Positions 19,751-34,891 of a DNA stretch of 37,133 nt are shown here, in pieces. Position 1 is the first letter of the stretch. The number at the start of each line of letters is the position of its first letter. A program made the position numbers and the translations under genes. The stretch lies in the NCBI GenBank assembly GCA_027028625.1, contig JALVIH010000016.1, positions 1 through 37,133 of the forward strand, given 5' to 3'. The notes beneath the pieces are model-generated. The model worked only from the letters and a program-made list of their open reading frames with translations, made no database searches and was not told the origin of the DNA. The DNA is from a bacterium. Lineage in GTDB: Bacteria > Patescibacteriota > Microgenomatia > JAADGY01.

Positions 19751-20187
19751 ATGACCAATTATCAAATTCCAAGGATACAAATGGAACTAGGAACTAAGAA
19801 CTAGGAGCTAGGTAAGAAAAGCACTAATCTCTAAATCCTAATTACCAAAATCTAAAACAGCTAGAACGGTCATCCTGAGGAGCCAGAGCGACGAAGGTCC
19901 CCCTTCGGTAGGGGTAAAATCTAGCCGAAGGCGCATGAGAGTGAACCCAAGCTTGGGTGCTAATCCTTGCACTCGCTCCGCTCGCTAGATTCTTCACATT
20001 CGTTCAGAATGACTCGGTCAAGCAGATACTTTCCTATAATTAAAGTTAAGATTTTAAAATTTGATTTGAATAAAAACCTGCCTGCCGGCAGGTAGGTTTA
20101 GAATTTCGTGCTTAGAATTTGTTTGGAGCTTAGGATTTCGAATTTAGTTTTTTAAACCTAGTTCCAAGTTCTAAGTTTTGAATTCTG
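19751..20187. repeat. Composite intergenic repeat island A
   Basis: CCAATTATCAAATT module; heptads GGAACTA GGAACTA AGAACTA GGAGCTA (19783-19813); palindromic core (19869-20013); GC palindrome (20075-20098, one mismatch); TTTAGGA/TAGTTCC-type heptads to the right. Confidence 0.85.
19869..20013 (+). repeat. Palindromic core element A (145 bp)
   Basis: gtcatcctgaggagc...tctagccgaaggcgcatgag...acccaagcttgggt...ctcgctagattcttcacattcgttcagaatgac. Confidence 0.85.
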
Positions 20188-23978: not shown

Positions 23979-24004
23979 GAGCCTGCCTGCCGGCAGGCAG
24001 GCTC
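23979..24004. repeat. Perfect 26-bp palindrome GAGCCTGCCTGCCGGCAGGCAGGCTC
   Basis: Read directly; related copies at 20075-20098 (one mismatch) and 34799-34822 (perfect 24 bp). Confidence 0.95.
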
Positions 24005-24035: not shown

Positions 24036-24149
24036 GTCATCCTGAGGAGCTGGGGCGACGAAGGGTCTAGCGAAGCGCAAAGAAATGAGCATCAAAGCTT
24101 GGGAGTACTCTCGTGCGCCTTCGGCTAGATCTCGACAAGTCGGGATGAC
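24036..24149 (-). repeat. Palindromic core element B (114 bp), core inverted relative to A, C and D
   Basis: gtcatcctgaggagctggggcgacgaagggtctagcgaagcgcaaag...aaagcttggg...gtgcgccttcggctagatctcgacaagtcgggatgac; reverse complement aligns to elements A, C and D. Confidence 0.85.
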
Positions 24150-24320
24150 ACAAAAGACAAAGTTTTGGATTTTAGTATTAGGATTTAGAATTTGTTTAGG
24201 ATTTAGGGTTTAGAATTTAGTGCTTTCTTCCAACCTAGTTCCTAGTTCCTAGCTCCTAGTTCCCATAACTGAGTTCCAAGTTCCAAGTTCCGATACCTCG
24301 AGAGAATGATAAACTAAAAT

Positions 24321-26701: not shown

Positions 26702-27292
26702 AAAACATAACCAATTATCAAATAAAATAGAACTTAGAACTTGGAGCTTGGAGTTTAGTTAACTAACGAGTCATTCTGAGCCCCGCAAAGCCCCCCTTCG
26801 GTGGAATAAATCCACCTTCGGTAGAGGTAAAAATCTAGCCGAAGGCGCATGAGTGTCTACTTAAGCTTGGATGCCAGCAACTTTGCGCTTTGCTAGATTC
26901 TTCACATTCGTTCAGAATGACCTCGAGAGGAGGTTATCTTTTCTCCTTTCGGGTGAGCCGCCAGGCGAAGGGAAGGCCCCCCTTCGGTAGGGGCAGGCAA
27001 TATTCAAATCCCAATGACCAAAAAAAGATAGAACTTGGATCTCGGAACTTAGAACTTAGAATAATTTTTTTCCTTTATACCCTTTATATACTTTGTCTCC
27101 TTGTCTCTTTGTCACTTTCTTTTTTAGGATTTGTTTGGAACTTAGGATTTCGGATTTAGTATTTTTTTAGTTTAGTTCCTCTAACTTAACTCCTAGTTCC
27201 TAGTTCCATTTGTATCCTTGGAATTTGGAATTTGTTATTTCTTACCGAGCTCTAAGTTTCAAGTTCTAAGTTCCGACCTCCTAGTTCCAATA
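26702..27292. repeat. Composite intergenic repeat island C (longest, 591 bp)
   Basis: CCAATTATCAAAT module (26710-26722); core element (26770-26921); free-standing CCCCCCTTCGGTAGGGG hairpin (about 26977-26994); several GAACTTAG/TAGTTCC heptad blocks; 26-bp exact inverted match to island A (27202-27227 vs 19763-19788). Confidence 0.85.
26770..26921 (+). repeat. Palindromic core element C (152 bp)
   Basis: gtcattctgagccccgc...tctagccgaaggcgcatgagtgtctacttaagcttgg...ctttgcgctttgctagattcttcacattcgttcagaatgac. Confidence 0.85.
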
Positions 27293-34516: not shown

Positions 34517-34666
34517 GTCATCCTGAACGAGCCGAGAGGCGAAGTGAAAGATCTAGCCGAAGGCGCACGGGTGTCTACTCAAGCTTGGGATCTAAGTTCT
34601 TTGCGCTTCGCTAGATTTTACCCCTACCGAAGGGGGGTCTTCGTCGCCTCAGCTCCTCAGGATGAC
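34517..34666 (+). repeat. Palindromic core element D (150 bp)
   Basis: gtcatcctgaacgagccgagaggcgaagtgaaagatctagccgaaggcgcacggg...caagcttggg...ctttgcgcttcgctagattttacccctaccgaaggggggtcttcgtcgcctcagctcctcaggatgac. Confidence 0.85.
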
Positions 34667-34798
34667 TCGTTAATAGGCTAAGTTCTGAGTTCCGAGTTCT
34701 AATTACCTAGCTCCTAGTTCCAGACAAACTGAGTTCTGAGGTCTTATTTCTGATTAAAATTTTTAGGATTTTGAAATTTGATTTGATTAAAAATTTCA

Positions 34799-34822
34799 AA
34801 CCTGCCTGCCGGCAGGCAGGTT
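34799..34822. repeat. Perfect 24-bp palindrome AACCTGCCTGCCGGCAGGCAGGTT
   Basis: Read directly. Confidence 0.95.
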
Positions 34823-34891
34823 AAAAATTAAAAATTAATCCCCTAGCTCCTAGTTCTTAGTTCCTAGCTCCTCCAACCTGGTTCCAACCCC

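Follow-up and report, generated by a model that had tools for sequence, protein, structure and literature searches.

The window analysed here (the whole stretch of 37,133 nucleotides) contains four copies, A to D, of a palindromic repeat in which the same long hairpin arm is joined to opposite sides of a central core, and this raises the question of how arms and cores came to be combined in such a way. The window belongs to a Microgenomates/Patescibacteria genome of 725 kb (54 contigs, 91% complete; G000). Each element consists of two inverted hairpin arms (GTC-AT..AT-CTAG) enclosing a core of ~54–63 bp that has two distinct ends and is itself closed by CTAGC/GCTAG. In the window elements an arm starts with GTCAT and stops with TCTAG, and the second arm is reversed beyond the core. 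Core end 2 occurs as subtype y (CGAGCGGAGCGAG) in A and as subtype x (CGAAGCGC; also CGAAGCGCAAAG) in B, C and D. The four copies are composed as follows:

19869–19924, + strand: element A, long class-a arm (aL, with an inserted CCCCTTCGGTAGGGG hairpin) at core end 1
19925–19984, + strand: element A, core with end 1 CCGAAGGCGCA and end 2 of type y (CGAGCGGAGCGAG)
19985–20013, − strand: element A, class-c arm (GTCATTCTGAACGAATGTGAAGAATCTAG) at core end 2
24036–24070, + strand: element B, short class-a arm at core end 2
24071–24124, − strand: element B, core of type x in the orientation opposite to A, C and D
24125–24149, − strand: element B, class-g arm (GTCATCCCGACTTGTCGAGATCTAG) at core end 1
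26770–26838, + strand: element C, class-d arm with a double insert (dLL) at core end 1
26839–26892, + strand: element C, core of type x
26893–26921, − strand: element C, class-c arm identical to that of A, at core end 2
34517–34556, + strand: element D, class-b arm at core end 1
34557–34610, + strand: element D, core of type x
34611–34666, − strand: element D, long class-a arm (aL) at core end 2

Intergenic regions are also filled by a degenerate, CTAG-rich repeat of ~7 bp (AGTTCCTAGTTCCTAG..) together with TTTAGGATTTAG-type repeats (19783–19812, 24223–24292, 27176–27289, 34681–34722 and 34842–34871). A palindrome separate from the elements (CCTGCCTGCCGGCAGGCAGG) recurs beside A, B and D (20077–20096, 23982–24001 and 34801–34820).

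The arms of A to D lie where an earlier note on this DNA had placed them, and its observation is real and general. The left arm of A (19869–19925) is 89% complementary to the right arm of D (34610–34666) over 57 nt, and this long arm joins core end 1 (CCGAAGGCGCA) in A and core end 2 (CGAAGCGCAAAG) in D. The arm of B was said to join the same side as the arm of D; the left arm of B does adjoin end 2, but it is short and lacks the CCCCTTCGGTAGGGG insert. A and C are closed by identical 30-nt arms, and the junction reads TCTAGC/GCTAGA at all eight window junctions. A cannot, however, be described as the core of B or D turned around, since its core is of type y and those of B, C and D are of type x.

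At least 60 complete copies of the element are present in G000. The strict arm pattern GTCATYCTGA-N{12,42}-TCTAGC matched 120 arms in this genome and none with a reversed-pattern control, so the arms are not chance matches; beside these 120 arms and the 140 sites of GTCATYCTGA in G000 stands a count of 262 in the closest genome compared, a sister species of the same genus (G001). These arms and core ends recur in another genome of the class (G017), together with the long arm that has two inserts. From sequence stretches around the copies, 64 paired elements were parsed in G000 and 62 in G001, and both core ends could be assigned in 111 elements of the two genomes; almost every element combines an end 1, either CCGAAGGCGCA or CCGATAGGCGCA, with an end 2 of type x or y. 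No paper on repeats of this sort in Patescibacteria was found in a literature search.

About eight arm classes can be defined by loop sequence, and nearly all of them occur on both core ends in G000 and in G001. Classes a, b, c, d, e, f and g are all found on both ends, with counts on the two ends of 21/23 (a), 17/12 (b) and 12/20 (d) in G000 and of 20/35 (a), 27/11 (b) and 6/14 (f) in G001. Nine unordered arm pairs exist in both orders, for example a/d (11 versus 10). A single fixed linkage of arm to core, with A as the unique exception, is thus contradicted genome-wide, and the same arm–core tables rule out a one-off rearrangement peculiar to A. The choice of arms is nevertheless restricted to a degree: classes g and b are found preferentially at end 1 and class c at end 2 (P<2e-4), which indicates some constraint or shared history. 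The long arms are normal arms of several classes that carry the same CCCCTTCGGTAGGGG insert beside TCTAG, some with a further nested insert; since these inserts are common to different arm classes, exchange takes place inside the arms too. Stem positions covary (TA 122, CG 118, mispaired or wobble 18), and these two-sided changes indicate that hairpin pairing is maintained. Arms, long-arm inserts and cores behave as interchangeable modules.

In a linkage analysis of 104 short-core elements, arm class showed almost no association with the core columns, even with those adjoining the junction. Neighbouring core columns are strongly linked (mean z ~15), but z declines to ~1–2 by seven or more variable columns, and the Cramer V after bias correction is 0.35 at a distance of 1 bp and has dropped to 0.08 by 12–16 bp. 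Linkage is thus lost over ~10 bp inside the core as well; exchange also reaches beyond the junction, which is not special in this respect. This speaks against an enzyme that acts only at TCTAGC, and with it against the inversion at the TCTAGC repeat that the earlier note had suggested. Its interpretation holds in part: there is exchange of arms and cores, and cores are found either way round, but a special inversion at TCTAGC is not supported. A site-specific inversion or exchange, in which a recombinase or cutting at CTAG leaves the core ligatable either way round, could account for the near-invariant junction (120 strict arms) and for the two core orientations. We nevertheless regard it as very improbable, because core-internal linkage decays on the same scale, the shared inserts imply exchange within arms, CTAG is plentiful elsewhere between genes (one per 103 bp in intergenic DNA versus one per 318 bp in the listed open reading frames) and no clean flip of the same core in place between the same arms was seen at the slots compared below. 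Recombination between arms by a phage integrase or Xer, as proposed for Nf1 phage at the dRS3 repeats of Neisseria (PMC3898611), has in its favour the resemblance of the arm plan to dRS3; no prophage was seen at an arm in the stretches around the copies, and we judge it highly improbable here.

The two arms of an element are rarely alike. Among the 111 elements only four were like-armed, compared with 19.1±3.5 expected, and the deficit holds in each species alone (2 versus 10.4, P 0.0004; 2 versus 8.8, P 0.001). In predicted DNA folds of the whole element, arm 1 pairs with arm 2 across the core in 95 of the 111 elements, and the predicted folding energy is −37.5 kcal/mol for the like-armed copies, of which there are only four, versus −25.5 kcal/mol for the others. 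Like-armed copies may be lost through palindrome instability, an idea that Di Nocera et al. propose for REP heterodimers (PMC3733652). A conserved secondary structure of the core was considered and rejected: only the CTAGC closure and GCGC pairs were predicted, and covariation gave no two-sided support.

Orthologous slots, whose flanking genes are ~76–95% identical between G000 and G001, offer a view of the elements over time. The slot of A contains no element in G001, and the slots of B and C contain other elements. Across 33 slots, sharing of arm classes is 0.261 versus 0.207 for random re-pairing (P 0.045), and sharing of arm plus core end is 0.114 versus 0.103 (P 0.31). Element orientation was the same at 12 and opposite at 20 of these slots, which is compatible with chance, and a systematic orientation flip between the species was therefore discarded. 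Some cores are retained: five of 22 core pairs at slots had a rank within the top 5% when compared in both directions (P 5e-5 against a base rate of 1.9%). Three of these five descent pairs are inverted, and four have one or both arms changed. This slot evidence consists of five or six core pairs, some with one-sided anchors:

L167/L140: orientation kept, other arms
L196/L146: orientation kept, other arms
L193/L093: core inverted, other arms
L186/L105: core inverted, one arm class kept
L154/L138: core inverted, both arm classes kept
window element B/L103: core inverted, weaker support

At a further pair, L181/L088, the arm classes are the same and the core differs. Arms and orientation at the slots are thus reshuffled almost to random, while some cores persist. 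Among the slots compared there is no clean case of one core flipped in place with both of its arms unchanged. Beyond the arms the flanks are repetitive too, and those of L154 and B go partly with the element, so that inversions of larger segments are possible; for single cases, whole-element inversion, arm replacement and independent insertion are each possible.

Three slots deserve separate mention. A 1.1-kb stretch beside a probable tRNA gene (L181 2374–3482 in G000) is missing in G001 (L088 590–593); it contains one element and a probable peroxiredoxin gene, read by eye, and the difference was rejected as a clean empty site because the stretch also carries this gene. In L093 (~944–968) and L193 (~2737–2761) a solitary class-g-like arm (CTAAACCCTGACAAGTCGGGGTGAC) is kept in both species, and the element adjoining it has changed between them. 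L167 (1389) and L189 (991), on different G000 contigs, correspond to opposite sides of a single G001 element (L140 989), which may reflect a rearrangement breakpoint at the element or just contig ends.

The almost complete difference in slot contents between the species, together with the presence of A in G000 at a slot that lacks an element in G001, would also be expected if the elements were mobile, MITE- or REPIN-like, with a transposase acting in trans that pairs compatible arms and inserts them separately into the same gaps. RAYT-like Y1 genes, one in G001 and two in G017, would suit such an independent transposition. No Y1 (RAYT) transposase was found in G000 (91% complete), however, and the Y1 genes of the relatives are flanked by inverted repeats other than the element arms. 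The fetched flanks of these genes contained no element arms, barring one arm-like sequence ~1.2 kb downstream of one G017 Y1 gene and past another gene. A dedicated Y1 transposase was accordingly rejected, and no transposase found here explains the multiplication of copies. No clean empty site was found at which a target site duplication, as expected of a MITE, might be read, and the flanks are repeats themselves. Some cores have stayed at their slots with different arms around them, and transposition alone neither unlinks arms from cores nor breaks linkage inside the core; we consider independent transposition unlikely as the main explanation. The single Y1 gene of G001 (L289 681–1340, − strand) lies between copies of the repeat ACGAGCC[C]GG..CCGGCTCGT.

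Mosaics could also be made by short-read assembly across repeats, given that the metagenome assemblies of G000 and G001 are fragmented, with several contigs breaking off within elements. Such an artefact is largely refuted and extremely improbable: the same modularity is found in G000, G001 and G017, the contig names of G001 (k151_) suggest a k-mer that equals or exceeds the length of most elements, and a separately assembled contig (L241, JALWAP010000149.1) repeats the element of G000 contig C5 with the same arms, core type and order, in flanks of ~94–96% identity. Since the C5 element is intact there, element change is slow relative to strain divergence at this one locus. The L241 contig is binned as Anaerolineae and is probably misbinned or chimeric, its positions 355–685 and 1122–1638 matching C5 at 85–96%.

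We think it reasonably probable that the elements are a high-copy family of intergenic REP-type palindromes, a mosaic repeat similar to dRS3 and the CGTC REPs. Recombination over short tracts, or template switching at hairpins, would shuffle its modules, and its like-armed palindromes would be purged. Short tracts would be exchanged between dispersed copies, by template switching or gene conversion while the hairpin-forming DNA is replicated, and such an exchange would sometimes invert the core or the whole element. Like-armed, near-perfect palindromes would be lost through their instability. Against this explanation it must be said that homologies of 6–30 bp are poorly suited to ordinary RecA recombination, that with repeat flanks a larger segment may have inverted in some of the apparent flips, and that independent insertion into the same gaps is possible. 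More tentatively, and at odds that we hold to be somewhat unfavourable, the palindromes may reassort their short modules near-freely and invert in place, under a requirement that the arms differ and with no transposase of their own.

By plan, the CGTC REPs and the neisserial dRS3/NIMEs are the closest known systems, and the present elements work like a mosaic REP dimer. The dRS3 repeat of Neisseria is the best-known CGTC-tagged REP. Enterobacterial BIMEs are likewise mosaic combinations of REPs and linker motifs, but the core described here has two distinct ends, the arms obey an unlike-arm rule and the sequences are different. REPINs and GTAG REPs with their RAYT share the arrangement of two inverted REPs around a spacer, the high copy number and the intergenic location; the tag is here GTCAT instead of GTAG, and no cognate RAYT flanked by the same REP was found in G000, G001 or G017. 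In the NIMEs (dRS3 plus RS units), too, short inverted hairpins that are proposed recombination sites separate exchangeable intergenic units. The present elements differ from NIMEs in a nearly fixed arm-core-arm plan, in which the arms are unlike and the cores belong to one family, and also in sequence: dRS3 is the 20-bp ATTCCC(N8)GGGAAT, and the stems here are ATTCT..AGAAT, ATCCT..AGGAT or ATCCCGA..TCGGGAT. Minute hairpin-associated inversions of chloroplasts (PMC2903610) resemble the elements in that the loop enclosed by short inverted repeats is found either way round, but those are single loci without dispersed copies or arm exchange.

CGTC REPs have an unpaired CGTC (or TGTC/CCTC) tag, a tail that fits CCA, a stem of 8–9 bp starting with complementary AT and a loop of 4–5 nt, and they have no known dedicated transposase (Di Nocera 2013, PMC3733652). 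The unpaired GTC tag and the AT first stem pairs are shared, AT..AT starting the stem in nearly all arms, and so are predominantly inverted dimers (64 pairs in G000 and 62 in G001), arranged head-to-head around conserved spacers, and the preference for heterodimers known from CGTC families 2 and 3. Only GTC is fixed in the tag of the present arms, however (preceding base A 67, C 29, T 21 and G 19 in 136 arms), and the tail is CTAGC and not CCA. Class g has a stem of ~7 bp with a 4-nt loop, classes a to f have larger apical parts, and most loops are much longer than 4–5 nt. Because tag, tail and loop lengths differ, the elements are not filed as members of the CGTC REPs, from which they are also set apart by their Microgenomates host and by an asymmetric core whose two sides both receive exchangeable arms of ~eight classes. 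Their presence indicates that a repeat population between genes can be large and change fast and still be tolerated by an extremely reduced genome, and as each orthologous position can be scored for arms, cores and orientation, rates of exchange, inversion and insertion could be measured directly. The preference for unlike dimers, which had ‘no obvious explanation’ in the CGTC REPs (PMC3733652), is here a strong, quantified rule in two related species.
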